From an uncultured Lachnospiraceae bacterium (lineage in GTDB: Bacteria; Bacillota; Clostridia; Lachnospirales; Lachnospiraceae), in NCBI GenBank assembly GCA_902800325.1, contig CADCDW010000026.1:1-43138 (forward strand): a stretch of DNA of 43,138 bases, given 5' to 3'. Positions within the stretch are counted from its first letter, which is position 1, and each line of letters starts with the position of its first letter. The notes below the pieces were generated by a model, which saw nothing but the letters and a program-made list of their open reading frames with translations, did not search any database and was not told where the DNA came from. Below, piece by piece: positions 14,068 through 21,413 of this stretch. A program made the translations under genes and the position numbers.

Positions 14068-14859
14068 GTGTTAAATAAAATATTAAAAACAGCATATTTA
14101 TATATATTGATGATTGCGACGGTTGTTTTGGTGCTTAACATACCTTGCGTTAAAATAGAAACACCGTTTGACAAGAGCGACAGGTCGGATTATGTTTTGG
14201 ATTCTTTAAAAGAATGTCCTCCAAATAATATGCATTATAATAATAATTCATGGACTATAGATGATGCTGATCCGTATGTGACAGTGTCCGGTGTAAATAA
14301 ATATATATATGGTGTGGAGATTAATACAAAAAATAATCAGGATAACCTTAATATATCTATTTATTATAATACCGGAAAAGGATTTAGTGAAAAAGAAGTT
14401 ATAGTGATGGATAATCGGGGAAACGGCGTATATAAATATCAGTTAAAAGGCAATATCAACGATATAAGAATTGATTTTGAGAATATAGAAGCGGGTGCGG
14501 AAATATCTGATATGACCGTTACATTGCATAATGGTTATAACTATTATAATAATTCTAAACGTACAATTATCCTGATAAATATTATGCTATTGATTGTTTG
14601 CAGTGTCTTTATATTTTTGAGTGTTTTTGTAATCAAAGATTCAATATTAACAGCTACTATAAAAGTTCTTATATATTCATCTGTAATTGCTCTTTCAGAA
14701 AAGAACTACTTTGGTATACAAAATACAACAGTTTTTTTCCTGTTGGTTGATATATGTGTTGTAATGGCCTGTATATTCTATAGTAATGATGGCAATGTAT
14801 TAAACGATAAATCTGAAAATGAGGGATCGATAAAAGAGGATAAGATTAATGAAGAATGA
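14068..14859 (+). CDS. Membrane protein with extracytoplasmic domain, function unknown
   Basis: 263 residues, start GTG at 14068 with TGAGG upstream. One N-terminal membrane helix (about 5-27), an Asn/Tyr-rich extracytoplasmic domain (30-165) with predicted beta character, then membrane helices at about 168-190, 195-213 and 217-237, and a charged tail. I recognise no family. It overlaps the next gene by 11 bases (start 14849), so translation is coupled, and it probably works with that GT-C-like protein in envelope glycosylation. Codon use is AT-rich like the rest of the sugar cluster. Confidence 0.7.
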   Translation: MLNKILKTAYLYILMIATVVLVLNIPCVKIETPFDKSDRSDYVLDSLKECPPNNMHYNNNSWTIDDADPYVTVSGVNKYIYGVEINTKNNQDNLNISIYYNTGKGFSEKEVIVMDNRGNGVYKYQLKGNINDIRIDFENIEAGAEISDMTVTLHNGYNYYNNSKRTIILINIMLLIVCSVFIFLSVFVIKDSILTATIKVLIYSSVIALSEKNYFGIQNTTVFFLLVDICVVMACIFYSNDGNVLNDKSENEGSIKEDKINEE

Positions 14860-16177
14860 AATAAAAAAAGAAAAGTGTTTTTGGGCGTGTGTATTATTTG
14901 GATGCTTTTTCTTATATCTGATGTGGGCTGTTATTATTCCGTATGATCATGCACCTGATGAATATATGAGATATGATATACCTGAGTATATTTTTAAATA
15001 TGGTCGTCTGCCTCATGGCGGAGCTGAGGAGATAAGAAATCCGATCTGGGGCTTTTCTTATGGATTTACACCGATTACCAGTTATATAATAGGTGCATTT
15101 TTTATGTGGATTACAAGCATTTTTAACGCATCGGATTTTGCTCTTTTAATAGCTGCAAGGTTTGTAAGTGTATTGTTTTCGGTTGGAACAGTTTTTATTT
15201 GTATAAAAATAAGTAATCGGATCTTTAAAAGCGTTTTTAAATATGCTTTTGTTATCAGTGTTGCAATTTTGCCTCAGTTTGTATTTATTTCATCGTATGT
15301 AAACAATGATGCTTTTGGGTTGTTTACGGTTGCATGGATTATATATGCGATGATTTATGCAAATGATAACAAGTGGAATTTGAAATCCTGCATATTTTTG
15401 GGAGTAGGTATCGGATTATGTTTGATTTCATATTACAATTGTTATGGAATAATCATCGCCGCTTTTATTTTTGCGATATTATCTGTTATATATGATGAGA
15501 GCATAGAGCATAAATTTAAATTTGCCATGACCAGAATTATATGGATACTTATTACAGTACTTTTAGTATCGGGCTGGTGGTTTATAAGAAATGCCATTTT
15601 GTATGACGGAGATTTCCTGGGATTGTCAACCAGCAAGAAATATGGGGAAAAATATGCATGGGATATGTACAAACCGTCCAATAGAGTTACACCTTATAAT
15701 TCGGGATTGTCTATGAAAGAAATGCTCATAGATAAAAAATGGATTGAATTAACGGCAAAGAGTTTTATAGGATATTTCGACTATATGAGTTTGCCGGTTA
15801 AAGATTGGTGTTATAACATAATGTATGTTGTTGCTGCAGCTTGTATAGTTGGAAACCTTATACCCGGCAGGCTTTGCGGTATCGCGAAAGATAAGACTCT
15901 TTCTTTTGTCAAGCTGGCGATGGTTATAATGTGCATTATTACGATAGGATTGAGTGTTGGTTACTCTTATTTCAGCGATTTTGAACCGCAGGGAAGATAC
16001 CTTCTTCCTATGTTGGTTTCATTTAATCTTTTGATTATAAATGGATGGGAGAGAATATTTAACAGATGTAATCATAAAATAAAAGGGCTGGGAGCTGCAA
16101 TTATTATAGGAATATATTGCGTTGTTTGCATTTATTCAACAAGCTATATATTGATTCCGAGATATATTTATATGTAA
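14849..16177 (+). CDS. Multi-pass GT-C-like membrane glycosyltransferase (DUF2142-type)
   Basis: 442 residues with about ten membrane segments. The first extracytoplasmic loop contains DHAPDEYMRYDIPEYIFKYG; an Asp-Glu pair after TM1 is the catalytic/metal site of GT-C enzymes that use lipid-phosphate sugar donors, and P-(P/A)-D-E-x is typical of DUF2142 proteins. A later loop ends FSDFEPQGRYLLPM, also seen in that family. It would act on the outer face of the membrane. Its neighbours (ArnC-like GT2, two small flippase-like proteins, an aminotransferase) suggest it transfers a polyprenyl-phosphate-linked amino sugar to an envelope acceptor. The acceptor is unknown. Confidence 0.75.
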   Translation: MKNEIKKEKCFWACVLFGCFFLYLMWAVIIPYDHAPDEYMRYDIPEYIFKYGRLPHGGAEEIRNPIWGFSYGFTPITSYIIGAFFMWITSIFNASDFALLIAARFVSVLFSVGTVFICIKISNRIFKSVFKYAFVISVAILPQFVFISSYVNNDAFGLFTVAWIIYAMIYANDNKWNLKSCIFLGVGIGLCLISYYNCYGIIIAAFIFAILSVIYDESIEHKFKFAMTRIIWILITVLLVSGWWFIRNAILYDGDFLGLSTSKKYGEKYAWDMYKPSNRVTPYNSGLSMKEMLIDKKWIELTAKSFIGYFDYMSLPVKDWCYNIMYVVAAACIVGNLIPGRLCGIAKDKTLSFVKLAMVIMCIITIGLSVGYSYFSDFEPQGRYLLPMLVSFNLLIINGWERIFNRCNHKIKGLGAAIIIGIYCVVCIYSTSYILIPRYIYM

Positions 16178-16194
16178 AAAATATTATTAGAAAA

Positions 16195-16353
16195 CTAGTA
16201 CACCGAAAAATAAATAACCGGCACAACCGCTTGATAAATTGTTCAGCTACTGCGTTGTCATCAGTCGACGATGCCACCGCATCGCCTCCTTCTTTGTATC
16301 TGAGACAATTTCTCTTCGTGATTGTACCAGATACTTATTATTCGGTGTACTAG
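16195..16353. mobile_element. MITE-like element, 159 bp
   Basis: It is bounded by inverted ends CTAGTACACCGAAAAATAA (16195-16213) and its near-complement (16335-16353, TTATTATTCGGTGTACTAG). It has no coding capacity. Inside are further hairpins: CGATGC-cacc-GCATCG, and GTATCTGAGACAAT against ATTGTACCAGATAC. No clear target duplication is visible. The shape fits a non-autonomous transposon or a mobile structured repeat inserted between two cluster genes. Confidence 0.75.
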
Positions 16354-16410
16354 CATAATAATGCAACAATTGAAATTAATTATGGTTCCATTTGTAATTC
16401 TATGATTTAA

Positions 16411-16439
16411 TTGACAGCATTTATAGATAATGATATATT
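16411..16439 (+). promoter_or_regulatory. Promoter of the amino-sugar operon
   Basis: TTGACA (16411-16416), 17-base spacer, TATATT (16434-16439), 24 bases before the first start. Likely drives the genes from 16464 to at least 19763. Confidence 0.8.
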
Positions 16440-16463
16440 TTGCTTAAATAAAAAGAAACGAGT

Positions 16464-17609
16464 GTGATACAGTTGATAAATTTTAATGTTCCGCCTTTTA
16501 TAGGCAACGAAATAGAATATGTTAAAACTGCTATAGAGAATCACAAAATATGCGGTGATGGAGATTTTACAAAAAAATGTAATGCATGGATAGAACAAAA
16601 TGCTCAAACAAAAAAAGCATTACTTACAACTTCGTGTACTCATGCGACTGAGATGGCAGCGATTTTGTGCGATATAAAACCCGGAGATGAGGTTATTATG
16701 CCGTCATATACATTTGTGTCTACAGCTGATGCATTTGTTTTGAGAGGTGCGAAGGCTGTTTTTGTCGATATAAGACCTGACACTATGAATATCGATGAAA
16801 AACTTATAGAAGATGCTATAACGGATAAAACCAAAGCCGTAGTTCCGGTTCACTATGCAGGTGTAGGTTGTGAGATGGATGAGATAATGAGAATTGCAAA
16901 AAAGCATAACCTTTATGTGGTTGAAGACGCGGCGCAAGGGATTATGAGTACATACAAAGGGAAGGCACTTGGATCTATAGGCGATTTTGGATGCTACAGT
17001 TTTCATGAAACCAAAAACTATTCAATGGGTGAAGGCGGGGCACTTCTGATAAAAGATGAGAATCATATTGAACGTGCTGAAATTATACGTGAAAAAGGGA
17101 CTAACAGAAGTAAGTTTTTCAGAGGACAGATAGATAAATATACATGGGTTGAAGCAGGTTCGTCATATCTTCCGAGTGAGATGAATGCGGCATATCTTTA
17201 TGCGCAGCTGGAGCAGGCTGATATGATAAATGAAAACAGATTAAAATCATGGAACAGTTATTATGAAATGCTAAAACCGCTTGCTGATGAAGGTAAAATT
17301 GAATTGCCGTTTATACCTAAAGAATGTGTGCATAATGCGCATATGTTTTATATAAAACTGAAAGATTTGGACATACGGACACGTTTTATAGATTATATGA
17401 AGAAAAACGGTGTATATTGCGTATTTCATTATATTCCATTACATTCTGCACCGGCAGGAGAGAAATACGGAAGATTTCATGGTAATGATAATTATACTAC
17501 AAAGGAAAGTGAACGACTTGTCAGATTGCCTATGTTTTATGGGCTAAAAGAATCAGAGGTTGAAATGATATGTGACAAGATTCGAGAGTTTTTTAAAAAT
17601 GCAAGATAA
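16464..17609 (+). CDS. dTDP-4-amino-4,6-dideoxygalactose transaminase (WecE/RffA-like)
   Basis: 381 residues of the DegT/DnrJ/EryC1/StrS class of PLP enzymes. It strongly resembles E. coli WecE along its whole length: the FNVPPFIGNE and CGDGDFTKKC N-terminus, VIMPSYTFVSTADAFVLRGA, VPVHYAGVGCEMD, VEDAAQG (Asp155), SFHETKNYS with the PLP lysine at 184, IIREKGTNRSKFFRGQ and YTTKESERLVRLPMFYG. It should aminate dTDP-4-keto-6-deoxyglucose. The start is GTG at 16464, or TTG at 16473 which matches the WecE N-terminus better; both have weak ribosome sites. No rmlA/rmlB is in view, so the nucleotide sugar must come from elsewhere. Confidence 0.9.
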   Translation: MIQLINFNVPPFIGNEIEYVKTAIENHKICGDGDFTKKCNAWIEQNAQTKKALLTTSCTHATEMAAILCDIKPGDEVIMPSYTFVSTADAFVLRGAKAVFVDIRPDTMNIDEKLIEDAITDKTKAVVPVHYAGVGCEMDEIMRIAKKHNLYVVEDAAQGIMSTYKGKALGSIGDFGCYSFHETKNYSMGEGGALLIKDENHIERAEIIREKGTNRSKFFRGQIDKYTWVEAGSSYLPSEMNAAYLYAQLEQADMINENRLKSWNSYYEMLKPLADEGKIELPFIPKECVHNAHMFYIKLKDLDIRTRFIDYMKKNGVYCVFHYIPLHSAPAGEKYGRFHGNDNYTTKESERLVRLPMFYGLKESEVEMICDKIREFFKNAR

Positions 17610-17946
17610 GATAAAATCATTTATTGAACTTCATGTTTTGTTGATTATATATTCGTTGGGTGGCATATGTTCCAAATTTGCAGGTCAGTCAAAGTTTTTA
17701 TCATTGAGGTTTTTCTTGTTCTATGGAATGGTCTTTTTGATTTTGGCTGTATATGCCATAGTATGGCAACAGATTTTAAAGAAACTGCCACTTGTAACGG
17801 CTTATGCCAATAAGGCGGTAACTGTTGTCTGGGGTTTGATATGGGGTATGTTGATTTTTAAAGAAAAGATTACCATAAATAATATTGTCGGCGCTTTGAT
17901 AATTATTGTTGGAATTTATATGGTGGTGAAGTCGGATGAATCATAA
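17599..17946 (+). CDS. Small EamA/SMR-type membrane protein, ArnE-like
   Basis: 115 residues from ATG 17599, which overlaps the end of the aminotransferase by 11 bases. Four membrane helices, with the family feature VTAYANKAVTVVWGLIWGMLIFKEKIT followed by a final helix. It forms a pair with the next gene (10-11 base overlap), the usual layout of heterodimeric ArnE/ArnF flippases that move undecaprenyl-phosphate-amino sugar across the membrane. The earlier in-frame ATG at 17572 lacks a ribosome site. Confidence 0.8.
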   Translation: MQDKIKSFIELHVLLIIYSLGGICSKFAGQSKFLSLRFFLFYGMVFLILAVYAIVWQQILKKLPLVTAYANKAVTVVWGLIWGMLIFKEKITINNIVGALIIIVGIYMVVKSDES

Positions 17947-18280
17947 TGTTTTATATATTTTATTATTTCTTATCTCTGTAATGGTTTCTTCTGTTTCACA
18001 GATTGTTTTAAAAAAAAGCGCCAACAAAACCTATGACAGTAAGATAAAGGAATATATGAATTTCCCTGTTATTTTTGCGTATGGATTATTTTTTTTATCA
18101 TCATTATTGACTGTTTGGGCATATAAATATGTACCGCTTTCCATGGGGCCGATATTGGAATCTACAGGATATATATGGGTTACTGTGCTTGGATATTTAA
18201 TACTAAAGGAGAAAATAACCAAGAATAAATTTTGGGGCATTTTTATCATAATTGTGGGAATTATTATATTTAATATCTGA
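17936..18280 (+). CDS. Small EamA/SMR-type membrane protein, ArnF-like
   Basis: 114 residues, four membrane helices, with VTVLGYLILKEKITKNKFWGI near the C-terminus, matching the equivalent part of its upstream partner. The start ATG lies inside the end of the previous gene, and GGTGGTGAAG provides the ribosome site. Together they would make a two-subunit flippase for a polyprenyl-phosphate sugar. A plain drug/metabolite transporter role is the alternative, but the neighbours favour the sugar-lipid role. Confidence 0.8.
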   Translation: MNHNVLYILLFLISVMVSSVSQIVLKKSANKTYDSKIKEYMNFPVIFAYGLFFLSSLLTVWAYKYVPLSMGPILESTGYIWVTVLGYLILKEKITKNKFWGIFIIIVGIIIFNI

Positions 18281-18292
18281 AAGGATCAGCAG

Positions 18293-18823
18293 ATGACAAT
18301 AGAAGGCAAGAAGATATATCTATCAAGTATTACCTATGATGATACAGATTCAATAATCGAATGGAGAAATAAAGAGTTTGTAAGAGAACAGTTTATTTAC
18401 AGAGAATTGTTTACACGAGATACTCATATAAACTGGATGAAGAAAATGGTTGAAACCGGTAAAGTTATTCAGTTTATTATATGCTTGAAAGAAAACAATA
18501 AAAAGATAGGTTCGGTATATTTGCGAGATATTGATGCAGAAAACAGAAAATGTGAATTTGGAATATTTATCGGCGAAGAAGATTGTATCGGATGTGGATA
18601 TGGCAGAGAAGCAGCAGAATTAATATGCAGTTATGCTTTTGAAAAACTTGGTATGTATAAAGTTTTCCTGAGAGTTTTATCGGATAATATTCGTGCACAA
18701 AAAAGTTATAAAAAGAGCGGATTTGAAGTTGAAGGAAAGTCGGTAGCTGATATCTGGATTGACGGTAGACCTATTGATGTGATATTTATGGCTAAATTTA
18801 AAGAAAATAAAAAACAGGGATGA
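18293..18823 (+). CDS. GNAT acetyltransferase (RimJ/PseH-like), likely amino-sugar N-acetyltransferase
   Basis: 176 residues. Begins IEGKKIYLSSITYDDTDSII-EWRN and carries GCGYGREAAELICSYAF (acetyl-CoA loop) and LRVLSDNIRAQKSYKKSGFEVEG, the pattern of the RimJ/RimL/PseH branch. Just after the flippase pair and before the GT2 gene, the simplest role is N-acetylation of the 4-amino group made by the WecE-like enzyme, as WecD does in enterobacterial common antigen synthesis. That assignment is inference from context. Ribosome site AAAGGATCAGCAG before ATG 18293. Confidence 0.85.
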   Translation: MTIEGKKIYLSSITYDDTDSIIEWRNKEFVREQFIYRELFTRDTHINWMKKMVETGKVIQFIICLKENNKKIGSVYLRDIDAENRKCEFGIFIGEEDCIGCGYGREAAELICSYAFEKLGMYKVFLRVLSDNIRAQKSYKKSGFEVEGKSVADIWIDGRPIDVIFMAKFKENKKQG

Positions 18824-18827
18824 AAAA

Positions 18828-19763
18828 ATGAAAAAGAAAATATCTTTTGTAATACCATGTTACTGCTCGGAAAAAACAATTGATAGTGTTGTTTGTGAAA
18901 TTAAAGAAACGATGAATGGATTAACCCGATATGACTACGAAATAGTTCTTATAAATGATTCATCACCGGATAACACATATGATGTTTTAAAAAAGATATG
19001 TAACACTGAAAACAACATAACTGTAATTGATATGGCTAAAAATTTTGGTCAACATGCGGCACTTATGGCAGGCTTTGGTATAGCTTGTGGCGATATCGTT
19101 GTTTGCCTTGATGATGATGGACAAACTCCTGCGGATGAGGTAGGGAAGTTGCTGGATGAGATAGAGAATGGTTACGATGTTGTTTATGCCAGATATGAAG
19201 AAAAGAAACATTCAAAATTCAGAAATTTTGGAAGTAAGATAAATAAAGCAATGACGGAACAGTTGCTTGGAAAACCTAAAAATCTATATGTGACAAGTTA
19301 TTTTGCCATGAAACGTTTTGTTGTAGATGAGATTCTCAAATATCAAAATGCTTTTCCGTATGTTATAGGCTTGGTTTTGAGAACAACAAATAAAATCTGT
19401 AATGTAAATGTATCACATAGAGAAAGAAAAATCGGTTCATCAGGTTATTCTTTAAAGAAGCTTATAGCTTTGTGGGTCAATGGATTTACATCTTTTTCAG
19501 TGAAACCACTAAGGTTTTCTACCTGTTGCGGTTTTATAGTTGCATTTTTGGGATTTATATATGCTATTTGGACTGTTATAAATAAATTTATAAATCCTGA
19601 TGTTCCTCTTGGTTGGAGTTCCACAATTTCAATTATGTTGATCATAGGTGGAATGATTTTACTTGTGCTTGGAATGATAGGTGAATATATAGGTCGAATA
19701 TATATATGTATCAATAATTCACCGCAATATGTAGTCAGAGAGATAGTCAAAAAAGACATTTAG
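18828..19763 (+). CDS. Polyprenyl-phosphate glycosyltransferase, GT2 (ArnC-like)
   Basis: 311 residues. GT-A fold with FVIPCYCSEKTI at the N-terminus and the metal-binding CLDDDGQTP near residue 100; two membrane helices at about 225-250 and 262-285 anchor it, the DPM1/ArnC/GtrB topology. GQHAALMAGF and the RKIGSSGYSLKKL segment are typical. It would load a sugar from its nucleotide donor onto undecaprenyl phosphate at the inner face of the membrane. It starts 4 bases after the acetyltransferase stop, so they are cotranscribed. Confidence 0.9.
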   Translation: MKKKISFVIPCYCSEKTIDSVVCEIKETMNGLTRYDYEIVLINDSSPDNTYDVLKKICNTENNITVIDMAKNFGQHAALMAGFGIACGDIVVCLDDDGQTPADEVGKLLDEIENGYDVVYARYEEKKHSKFRNFGSKINKAMTEQLLGKPKNLYVTSYFAMKRFVVDEILKYQNAFPYVIGLVLRTTNKICNVNVSHRERKIGSSGYSLKKLIALWVNGFTSFSVKPLRFSTCCGFIVAFLGFIYAIWTVINKFINPDVPLGWSSTISIMLIIGGMILLVLGMIGEYIGRIYICINNSPQYVVREIVKKDI

Positions 19764-19786: not shown

Positions 19787-20074
19787 ATGAGGAAAACAAC
19801 AAAAACAAAATTGATTGCTGCAGCTTTGACCAGTGGTGTGTTTTTGGCAGGGTTTACAAGCTGCAGGTCTCAAAAAAATGATAAAAAAACCGATACGACT
19901 TCGACAAATGCAACTACAAATGAGGAATACGATATAACGGAACCGCAAACTGTGTATGGACCGCCTCCTGCACTTGATGATGAGAAAACTACGGAAGAGA
20001 TTACTACAGAAAAATATAATCCGGAAGATGACGTGCCGGAGGATGTGTATGGACCGCCGGAGGATTTTAATTAG
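19787..20074 (+). CDS. Small Thr/Glu-rich lipoprotein with two VYGPP motifs
   Basis: 95 residues. Lys-rich N-terminus, a hydrophobic stretch (9-24) and Cys26 in FLAGFTSC, a plausible though not ideal lipobox. The mature part is disordered, rich in Thr, Asp and Glu, and contains VYGPPP at 56-61 and VYGPPEDF at 87-94, close to the C-terminus. The two motifs are followed by acidic residues. It starts 23 bases after the GT2 gene with GAAGAAGG upstream, so it may be the last gene of that operon. The next gene encodes a radical SAM/SPASM enzyme, which makes this a candidate substrate for post-translational modification. No homologous function is known to me with certainty. Confidence 0.85.
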   Translation: MRKTTKTKLIAAALTSGVFLAGFTSCRSQKNDKKTDTTSTNATTNEEYDITEPQTVYGPPPALDDEKTTEEITTEKYNPEDDVPEDVYGPPEDFN

Positions 20075-20128
20075 GGTGTTCTTTCGGTGCTTTAAAGAAA
20101 ATATGTTAGATTTTTAATGGGGTGATCT

Positions 20129-20182
20129 GTCAGGCTTTACAAAGAGTGCATAAGAAATCTTAATTGGAGAGATTTGCCTGAC
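20129..20182 (+). promoter_or_regulatory. Inverted repeat upstream of the radical SAM gene
   Basis: GTCAGGC (20129-20135) pairs with GCCTGAC (20176-20182) around a 40-base loop; a smaller TTCTTT/AAAGAA hairpin precedes it just after the lipoprotein stop. It lies 36 bases before the radical SAM start. It could regulate the ratio of substrate to maturase; no T-run terminator is seen. Confidence 0.4.
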
Positions 20183-20218
20183 TTAAAGAACGCTTGAAAA
20201 TTGCGTGGGGTAATTTAT

Positions 20219-21292
20219 ATGTTGGATGTCAATACAAAATTTAAACATATGAAGCAACTTTCAGAGTATAGGGAAGGTCTGAAGAAAAAGCCGTTACTTA
20301 AGAATCTGTTTTTGGAACTTACCATCAGGTGTAATGAGCATTGTATTCATTGTGGAAGCTTCTGCGGAGATGTGCAAAATGAAGAGTTAACTTTGGAACA
20401 GTACAAAACATTTTTAGATGAGGTAAAAGAAGACTTTGGAACGGAAGGATATATGCTTTGCATAACCGGTGGGGAACCGCTTCTTCGAAAAGATTTTTTT
20501 GAGATTATGAATTATGCTCATATGCTTGGATTTAAGTGGGGAATGACGAGTAATGGCATATTGATTACACTTGAAGTCGCAGCAAAACTACATGAGGCGG
20601 GTATGGGTACCATATCTGTAAGTATAGACGGTTTGGAAGATACACATGATTCTTTCAGGCAGACCAAAGGTGGCTACAGGAAAGCTATGGAGGGTATCCA
20701 AAATCTTATAGATGTAGGCAGGTTTAAAACGATTCAGGTTACTACTGTGGTTACACACCAAAATATAGGCGAATTAGATGCCTTATATGATATATTTGAC
20801 AAAATGGATATTGATTCATGGAGAGTTATAAATATCGAGCCTATGGGAAGGGCAAAGCTTCATCCTGAACTAATACTCAACAAGGAAGATTACAGGTATC
20901 TCATGGAATTTATCAGAGATAAGAGAATGGCCGGCGAGCCTGTGGAATACGGCTGTAGTCATTATCTGGGAGCCGAGTATGAACATGAGATAAGGGATTG
21001 GTACTTCATCTGTTCGGCAGGGCTATATGTCGCAAGCATTACTGCAAACGGCGATATAATAGCCTGTCTTGATATAGAGCGAAGACCGGAGCTTGTCCAG
21101 GGAAATATCTTAAAAGACAGATTTAAGGATGTATGGGAAAACCGATTCAAGGAATTCAGAATTGATTTAAGTGACAGATGTAGCAAATGTCAAAATTGCA
21201 GTGAAAAAGACAGATGTCATGGAGATTCCTATCATAGTTGGGATTTTGATAGAGGCGAACCGATTTTATGTTTTAGGGATATATTGTTTTAA
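20219..21292 (+). CDS. Radical SAM/SPASM domain protein, probable peptide or lipoprotein maturase
   Basis: 357 residues from ATG 20219; the TTG 18 bases upstream is an alternative. The radical SAM cluster motif is CNEHCIHC (C-x3-C-x2-C) near residue 40, in ELTIRCNEHCIHCGSFCG, followed by CITGGEPLLRKDFF and VSIDGLEDTHDSFR. The C-terminal SPASM region has cysteines in GCSHYLG, FICSAG, IACLD and CSKCQNCSEKDRC...ILC, enough for two auxiliary 4Fe-4S clusters. This layout is typical of enzymes that modify ribosomally made peptides. The C-I-H-C-G-S-x-C form resembles the 'rSAM/lipoprotein' enzymes known from Bacteroidetes. The neighbouring VYGPP lipoprotein is the obvious candidate substrate. Confidence 0.88.
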   Translation: MLDVNTKFKHMKQLSEYREGLKKKPLLKNLFLELTIRCNEHCIHCGSFCGDVQNEELTLEQYKTFLDEVKEDFGTEGYMLCITGGEPLLRKDFFEIMNYAHMLGFKWGMTSNGILITLEVAAKLHEAGMGTISVSIDGLEDTHDSFRQTKGGYRKAMEGIQNLIDVGRFKTIQVTTVVTHQNIGELDALYDIFDKMDIDSWRVINIEPMGRAKLHPELILNKEDYRYLMEFIRDKRMAGEPVEYGCSHYLGAEYEHEIRDWYFICSAGLYVASITANGDIIACLDIERRPELVQGNILKDRFKDVWENRFKEFRIDLSDRCSKCQNCSEKDRCHGDSYHSWDFDRGEPILCFRDILF

Positions 21293-21384: not shown

Positions 21385-21413
21385 TTGACAATACAGTTTT
21401 AATGGAGTATAAT
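21385..21413 (+). promoter_or_regulatory. Consensus promoter of greA
   Basis: TTGACA (21385-21390), 17-base spacer, TATAAT (21408-21413): a perfect sigma-A promoter. A second, weaker candidate (TTGACA about 50 bases upstream with TAGAGT) precedes it. The leader to greA is about 90 bases. Confidence 0.9.

Follow-up and report, generated by a model that had tools for sequence, protein, structure and literature searches.

A VYGPP lipoprotein and its adjacent radical SAM/SPASM enzyme: a conserved pair in Clostridia and a candidate backbone-splicing system

Results

The locus

Lachnospiraceae are a family of bacteria common in guts and rumens. We report a computational analysis of a 43,138-nucleotide stretch of DNA from an uncultured member of this family (GenBank assembly GCA_902800325.1, contig CADCDW010000026.1, positions 1 to 43,138 of the forward strand; hereafter the window) and, in particular, of two adjacent genes on its + strand, one for a small lipoprotein that carries the motif VYGPP and one for a radical SAM/SPASM enzyme. 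An original prediction, made from the letters of the sequence, had described the pair as a candidate modified-lipoprotein system, and both of the genes on which it was built are present as described.

The lipoprotein, the candidate substrate, is encoded by an open reading frame (ORF) of 95 codons (19787 to 20074) and starts with a signal peptide and lipobox (residues 1-26, 19787 to 19864), whose N-terminus is of the type MKKTxKTxLxAA and whose end, FTSC, was judged to be a lipobox by eye. The two copies of VYGPP occupy residues 56-60 (19952 to 19966) and, close to the C-terminus, residues 87-91 (20045 to 20059); the proposed splice sites discussed below are V56-Y57-G58 and V87-Y88-G89. Acidic or Thr-rich stretches follow the copies and the protein ends in EDFN. 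The lone cysteine of the protein, Cys26 of the lipobox, excludes thioether chemistry in the core, and we rejected a thioether RiPP (ribosomally synthesised and post-translationally modified peptide): the modified core has no Cys of the kind that a sactipeptide or ranthipeptide substrate carries.

The enzyme, the candidate maturase, is encoded at 20219 to 21292 and has 357 amino acids from its likeliest start, the ATG at 20219, which leaves 144 bases between the two genes; an alternative TTG start lies at 20201. Its cluster motif CNEHCIHCGS (20330 to 20359), identified in the alignment and in the rows of the tree, contributes Cys38, Cys42 and Cys45, and a SPASM region, recognised by Pfam and in the alignment, extends from Cys265 to Cys351 (21011 to 21271). 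Both Pfam matches exceed their cut-offs (Radical_SAM PF04055, 80.6 bits; SPASM PF13186, 36.8 bits), so that the CxxxCxxC core and C-terminal SPASM domain of the radical SAM/SPASM superfamily are both in place. The top matches of a structure model of the enzyme (predicted local distance difference test, pLDDT, 81.5; below 50 at residues 247-268) include SkfB, SuiB, anSME, BlsE and ChlB, which are general SPASM folds only.

Pairing of enzyme and motif

Close orthologues of the enzyme (E < 1e-120) occur in 14 of 99 genomes, namely the window's own and 98 relatives, the next match standing at 8.4e-36, and a VYGPP ORF lies directly upstream in all 14, in one as a tail at the end of a contig. A larger set of 88 loci comprises the window, six further loci, the best 80 of 499 relatives scanned at one genome per species (L044-L123) and one IMG/VR contig (L124). 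The titles of the 80 relatives read Lachnospiraceae, Ruminococcus (including R. flavefaciens isolates), Oscillospiraceae, or only Clostridiales, Clostridia or Bacillota, and six of the 13 orthologues come from genomes in this set, so the two sets overlap. An ORF with YG[PA]P lies upstream of the enzyme in 87 of the 88 loci, the median distance to the nearest being 10 bases, and the remaining locus, L124, has a 326-residue protein with IYGSP and LYGSP that ends just before the enzyme, so that YGxP adjoins the enzyme in 88/88. The original prediction had named an enzyme found mostly without the motif protein, or a VYGPP not conserved in homologues, as results that would speak against it; the reverse was found on both counts. 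L124 was the sole IMG/VR match, and its ORFs resembling pheS and pheT (by eye) make it probably host DNA; we rejected the idea of a phage trait.

The conservation of the motif is specific in place and strand. A six-frame control over the 80 loci counted 337 instances of [VLAI]YGPP within 2 kb upstream of the enzyme on its own strand and none in five control compartments (upstream antisense, both strands downstream and both strands of the enzyme). Furthermore, the 284 VYGPP sites of 87 loci use 125 different 15-base spellings, which argues that the motif is kept at the level of protein. In the window's own genome a 14-base pattern for [VLF]YGPP is found four times, as is a reversed control pattern, so that this count is not above chance and the strength of the case for pairing rests on the comparison across loci. 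Two of these four sites lie inside the lipoprotein and two in the P-loops, LYGPPG(L/T)GKT, of ATPases resembling RuvB and MgsA (names given by eye); the VYGPP of the lipoprotein is no P-loop, and such a reading of it was rejected. A less selected set of 20 enzyme loci, in 19 of 391 Clostridia genomes, has a YG-motif neighbour recognised by eye in 19, a few of which hold a single copy; L152 (AYGID) is doubtful, and the neighbour at L163 and L164 is about 2.3 kb downstream of the enzyme.

Proteins that carry the motif

In the window's family the carrier is a short lipoprotein in which VYGPP appears 1 to 5 times; each of the 87 loci has 1 to 4 motif ORFs, and a single ORF can hold up to 6 YG[PA]P. 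The lipoprotein is nevertheless only one kind of carrier, because a type I dockerin (Pfam, E up to 0.001) is borne by 88 of 141 motif proteins from L044-L123. By a regular-expression pattern, by which both dockerin and lipobox classes are rougher than by the Pfam count, 59 of 150 motif proteins are lipoprotein-like. A few motif proteins have no evident signal peptide, among them two VYGPP proteins with charged N-termini (L121:3289-3546 and L076:3133-3465) that stand beside the usual secreted ones. Thus the pairing implied by the original name of a modified-lipoprotein system stands, while the lipoprotein as the rule for the carrier does not.

The N-termini of the motif proteins are more alike than expected for signal peptides. 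In an alignment of 141 proteins (A3, from which one of the 142 motif ORFs, the wrong-frame L068:3300-3593, was left out), the pattern MKKTxKTxLTAA shows T in 130/137, A in 132/138 and A in 135/138, which suggests that the signal sequence may double as a recognition leader.

Across five genomes of the R. flavefaciens type, the DNA pattern occurs at 8, 8, 7, 8 and 8 places (39), and its reversed control at 2, 2, 3, 1 and 1 (9). Thirty of the 39 places were read, and the full-length motif proteins among them are of the same lipoprotein and dockerin types, the other places being P-loops or short frames. The dockerins place the motif on cellulosome-type proteins. A further class of carrier, without an evident signal peptide, is formed by zinc-ribbon proteins with VYGGP or YGSP beside related enzymes (L169:401-703, L171:2496-3221 and L124:2997-3974), the zinc ribbon being above the Pfam cut-off in L169 and L171 and a weak match only in L124; some products may therefore stay inside the cell.

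Kinship of the enzyme

In a tree of 50 radical SAM/SPASM enzymes, the 14 VYGPP enzymes and seven TIGR04133-type enzymes form one clade (100/99), the window enzyme being among these 21 rows together with the annotated TIGR04133 enzymes, and the VYGPP group is nested inside (93/80). The seven are two enzymes annotated as TIGR04133, an unannotated one from Phocaeicola, and four Clostridia rows that score 287.8-385.6 bits, below the cut-off of that family. The sister clade (99/97) holds 18 enzymes, among them TIGR03913-type and Clostridia enzymes and a Nostoc enzyme annotated as nif11-class peptide radical SAM maturase 3 (TIGR04103), a family that we take to be that of PlpX. The double clade splits at 100/95 from 11 other radical SAM enzymes (MftC, NirJ, TIGR04347, TIGR04053, ACGX, weak AhbD-like rows and one without a name), and CxxxCx[HY]CGS is common to it (HCGS; YCGS in four) and missing from the sampled outgroups. 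The approximately unbiased (AU) test rejects a union of the VYGPP and TIGR04133 enzymes with the AhbD-like rows (p 0.0001) and, weakly, one with MftC (p 0.028). An earlier tree, from which four long-branch rows (L018, L023, L030, L217) were then removed and to which three AhbD-like rows were added, likewise joined the VYGPP and TIGR04133 enzymes with the sister clade (97/94).

Motif neighbours of related enzymes

An Xaa-Tyr-Gly, often with Pro three residues after the Tyr, recurs in the otherwise dissimilar neighbours of these enzymes. Lipoproteins of Bacteroidota and Treponema have CEYGSP, CEYGTP or CYGMP at or near the lipid Cys and adjoin the two annotated TIGR04133 enzymes and their unannotated relative; together with the enzyme clade, they confirm the likeness to the radical SAM/lipoprotein pairs of Bacteroidetes to which the original prediction had pointed. 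A Clostridia lipoprotein (L149) passes the cut-off of TIGR04134 (52.3 bits; cut-off 39.8), has a predicted mature start CGMYGPP, and includes a carboxypeptidase-regulatory-like stretch that is below cut-off. Two zinc-ribbon proteins have VYGGPDYF (L169) and VYGGPEYF (L171), and in Agathobacter (L177) a 68-residue ORF ends VMYGTGVRM.

In the sister clade, 14 of the 18 enzymes in the tree have a YG-motif neighbour. The Nif11 precursor next to the Nostoc enzyme ends ALYGLPPELF, and a 71-residue protein follows the enzyme at the place expected of PlpY, a likeness of position alone. Small leader peptides of two Clostridia (L170 and L172) carry PIRPLYGIEPPVRPLYGIEP or KPLYGIEPGPIIPLYGIKP, the first of which resembles the PIRP-GYG-LPI tags that PlpXY accepts according to the available part of PMC10533398. 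Those of L163, L164 and L226 carry KYGV three times plus LYGI or MYGI, or LYG three times, and are found about 2.3 kb downstream, past an ORF resembling a peptidase-transporter by eye. All five peptides, beside TIGR04103-like Clostridia enzymes, look like multi-site spliceotide precursors. In the DUF1843 GDL-motif peptides of TIGR03913-type systems (L179, L180, L214) a Tyr near the start precedes Gly, Ala or Met, a hint that the chemistry may be shared.

Proteins of roughly 280 to 340 residues with KYGxP repeats occur at L162, L165, L016, L017 and L019, where such KYGxP or KYGYPCG repeat proteins adjoin longer radical SAM enzymes of at least 475 residues; L016, L017 and L019 represent a second, distinct YG system within the window's own genus. 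The KYG-repeat protein of L162 has a chagasin (I42) protease-inhibitor domain (46.3 bits, cut-off 27.2), and those of L016, L019 and L165 gave no I42 match.

Surrounding genes

Upstream of the pair, a glycan-type run at 14849-19763 encodes a WecE-like aminotransferase (664.4 bits, above cut-off), two EamA-type small membrane proteins, a GNAT acetyltransferase and a family-2 glycosyltransferase. The pair was rejected as a part of this sugar operon: wecE, one flippase subunit, the GNAT and the glycosyltransferase were found in 0/13 orthologue regions (E 1e-15). After the enzyme, greA and lysS follow in 5/6 close orthologue regions, and since a perfect sigma-70-type match (TTGACA, 17 nt, TATAAT) stands ahead of greA at 21385-21413 of the window, greA may start its own transcript.

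Discussion

We propose, with a probability of about 0.6, that the lipoprotein and the enzyme form a two-part protein-modification system in which tyramine would be excised at VYG, leaving alpha-ketoamides at the surface that are most likely protease-inhibiting or otherwise covalently reactive. The original prediction had called the chemistry unknown, and a specific proposal, tyramine excision at Xaa-Tyr-Gly, is now possible. The enzyme would act in the cytoplasm, binding the pre-lipoprotein and abstracting hydrogen at the Tyr of each Val-Tyr-Gly of VYGPP; a tyramine unit (C8H9NO, about 135.07 Da per site) would be lost from the Tyr and the backbone rejoined, giving a valine-derived alpha-keto-beta-amino acid (an alpha-ketoamide) ahead of Gly-Pro-Pro. 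The Tyr would thus be removed and the Val rebuilt, with the Pro probably a part of recognition. Export and then lipid anchoring would follow, placing two electrophilic ketoamides on the cell surface.

The model for this chemistry is PlpX, which is assigned to IPR026482 and which, with PlpY, cuts tyramine out at Xaa-Tyr-Gly so that an alpha-keto amide is left, as described in the available text of PMC11002830. We infer the same or a closely related chemistry here because the enzyme, from a sister clade, faces the same core: Xaa-Tyr-Gly is present in the partner protein, twice as VYG in the window lipoprotein. The accessible portions of PMC10373908 and PMC11117315 report that a precursor with the XYG motif can undergo several splicings, that splicing is broad across bacteria and that the products inhibit proteases. 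The two kinds of system are also alike in the Pro three residues after the Tyr in many neighbours, in HCGS and in several sites per precursor. They differ in that the VYGPP system has no Nif11 or nitrile-hydratase-like leader; furthermore, its partner is a surface lipoprotein or a dockerin protein, and splicing in it is predicted.

Several observations weigh against this proposal. With respect to the substrate, PlpXY acts on MYG and LYG, and on GYG as an engineered motif, and VYG is not among the motifs given in the available part of PMC10533398; according to the same text PlpXY accepts two FtsZ tags built on PIRPGYGLPI and refuses the others, an exact LYG tag included. With respect to the profiles, the best NCBIfam match of the enzyme is TIGR04133 (rSAM_w_lipo; 270.4 bits, E 1.9e-80), below the cut-off of 425, and TIGR04103 yields 116.3 bits against a cut-off of 725, ranking behind TIGR04133, AhbD, MftC and others. 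The window lipoprotein has no match to TIGR04134 (lipo_with_rSAM, cut-off 39.8 bits) at E up to 1; a search of relatives with this profile matched 0/21 genomes, its controls being equally silent. The outgroup rows of the tree include neither PqqE nor a true AhbD, and PlpX itself is absent from the rows, the Nostoc enzyme annotated as TIGR04103 serving as its stand-in. No convincing YG neighbour was found for four sister-clade enzymes (L015, L020, L167 and L215), for three of which wider stretches were read, and the single-copy YG matches (L150, L151, L152 and L177) could be due to chance, a weaker kind of case because YG by itself is common.

The partner and the clusters weigh in the same direction. 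No PlpY or RiPP recognition element (RRE) partner was found by the enzyme, the gaps of 144 bases before and 173 bases after it being without such an ORF, and the single PqqD-family match in the genome lies on another contig (L222), near an ORF resembling an OPT-type transporter, although the PqqD-family profile could miss a truncated RRE. The enzyme has about 30 residues ahead of its radical SAM core and the model shows one helix only before the core, which leaves no room for an RRE in the enzyme itself. In an alignment of 21 VYGPP or TIGR04133-type enzymes with 18 of the sister clade, position 337 (21227 to 21235 spans 337 to 339 in the window) is S, A or G and position 339 His in 21/21, whereas Cys337, the fourth Cys of CX2CX5CX3C, is kept in 18/18 sister-clade enzymes and His339 occurs in 0/18. 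The window enzyme, with Ser337, therefore falls short of the full SPASM set; the invariant His339 may be a ligand of an auxiliary cluster, and with Cys337 lost and His339 present the chemistry of the VYGPP enzymes may have changed.

The replacement speaks for an alternative in which the Tyr of VYGPP is still the target but the TIGR04133 branch, having left splicing behind, would carry out a different chemistry there: hydroxylation, dehydrogenation, a neighbouring epimerisation or cross-linking, for instance into a Tyr-Gly-Pro cyclophane. The mycofactocin enzyme MftC, which ranks third among the profile matches of the window enzyme (147.5 bits), offers a precedent: as described in the available text of PMC8326336, it decarboxylates Tyr and joins it to the adjacent Val, and it resembles the window enzyme in being a radical SAM/SPASM enzyme that acts on a Val-Tyr pair. 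It differs in its substrate, the C-terminal VY of a 34-residue peptide, in its MftB partner gene and in standing outside the clade, a union with it being disfavoured by the AU test reported above. A cyclophane, moreover, fits poorly with the position two after the Tyr, which varies widely and in the VYGGP proteins is a Gly, with no C-beta, and the steadiest letters of the motif are Y and G, as the XYG splice rule requires. We regard another reaction at the Tyr as unlikely. That VYGPP is a plain binding or structural motif, with the adjacent enzyme acting elsewhere, we consider very improbable: its richness in proline and its repetition along acidic or Thr-rich linkers recall docking motifs, but the motif protein is a steady neighbour of the enzyme where the upstream sugar genes are not, and unrelated builds, from lipoproteins and dockerin proteins to zinc-ribbon proteins and small leader peptides, retain YG beside these enzymes.

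Tyramine excision at VYG is thus our preferred reading, and we file the pair as one that works like a splicease system, outside PlpX/TIGR04103 membership and as a divergent relative of the TIGR04133/TIGR04134 pairs. It is placed outside PlpX/TIGR04103 because the scores fall short of the TIGR04133, TIGR04134 and TIGR04103 cut-offs, no PlpY-like partner was found, Cys337 is replaced and there is no room for an RRE; the TIGR04103 cut-off was reached in 0/291 Clostridia genomes. With the TIGR04133/TIGR04134 pairs of Bacteroidota and Spirochaetota it shares one enzyme clade, an adjoining lipoprotein gene, the loss of Cys337 and the gain of His339. Their YGxP stands just after the lipid Cys, whereas the window's VYGPP is repeated and away from it, and the window lipoprotein has no carboxypeptidase-regulatory-like stretch as in L149. 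The GDL-motif (DUF1843)/TIGR03913 systems, whose enzymes lie within the sister clade, are similar in their short tandem precursors with early Tyr-Gly, Tyr-Ala or Tyr-Met and differ in that these are small, unsecreted peptides with a looser motif.

As to function, surface-anchored covalent protease inhibition is our leading guess, held with less confidence than the pairing of enzyme and substrate; it leads because the dockerin context, the dockerin serpins and the chagasin fusion point to it together. R. flavefaciens is a cultured species whose dockerin proteins have been studied. The proteins of strain FD-1 include some that combine a dockerin with a serpin and many dockerin proteins containing unknown regions (PMC2930009); serpins may shield the cellulosome from proteolysis (PMC5301203), as far as the accessible text of both reports goes. 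A function also compatible with the chemistry, though we think it somewhat unlikely, is that the modified sites serve covalent attachment, between the ketone and amines of proteins or the cell wall, or signalling. Ketoamides react readily and are used for ligation (PMC10533398, in its available part), and up to 6 YG[PA]P per protein would suit multivalency; the chagasin domain on the KYG-repeat protein of L162, if not on three others, points instead to protease control, as do the protease inhibition by spliceotides in the accessible parts of PMC11117315 and PMC10373908 and the FD-1 serpins (PMC2930009, PMC5301203).

No paper on VYGPP proteins, on the chemistry of TIGR04133 or on dockerin-borne splice sites was found in the literature searched, outside which stands the survey of Scott et al. 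2022 that may cover some of these families, and the novelty of the VYGPP system is accordingly provisional. If the proposal is true, it would provide a testable chemistry for a class of radical SAM/lipoprotein pairs that NCBI names only by number, would carry backbone splicing over to surface proteins that are lipid-anchored or of the cellulosome type, and would offer natural protein tags bearing several reactive ketone sites. For the gut and rumen Clostridia themselves a broader picture is possible, at rather less than even odds: a lipoprotein-type lineage of spliceases with a His-bearing auxiliary cluster site may put repeated alpha-ketoamide (beta-amino acid) sites on ribosomally encoded proteins of the cell surface and of cellulosomes. 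These covalent protease inhibitors would form a shield that can be tuned genetically, the target protease being set by the residue before the Tyr (Val, Leu, Lys, Met or Glu).

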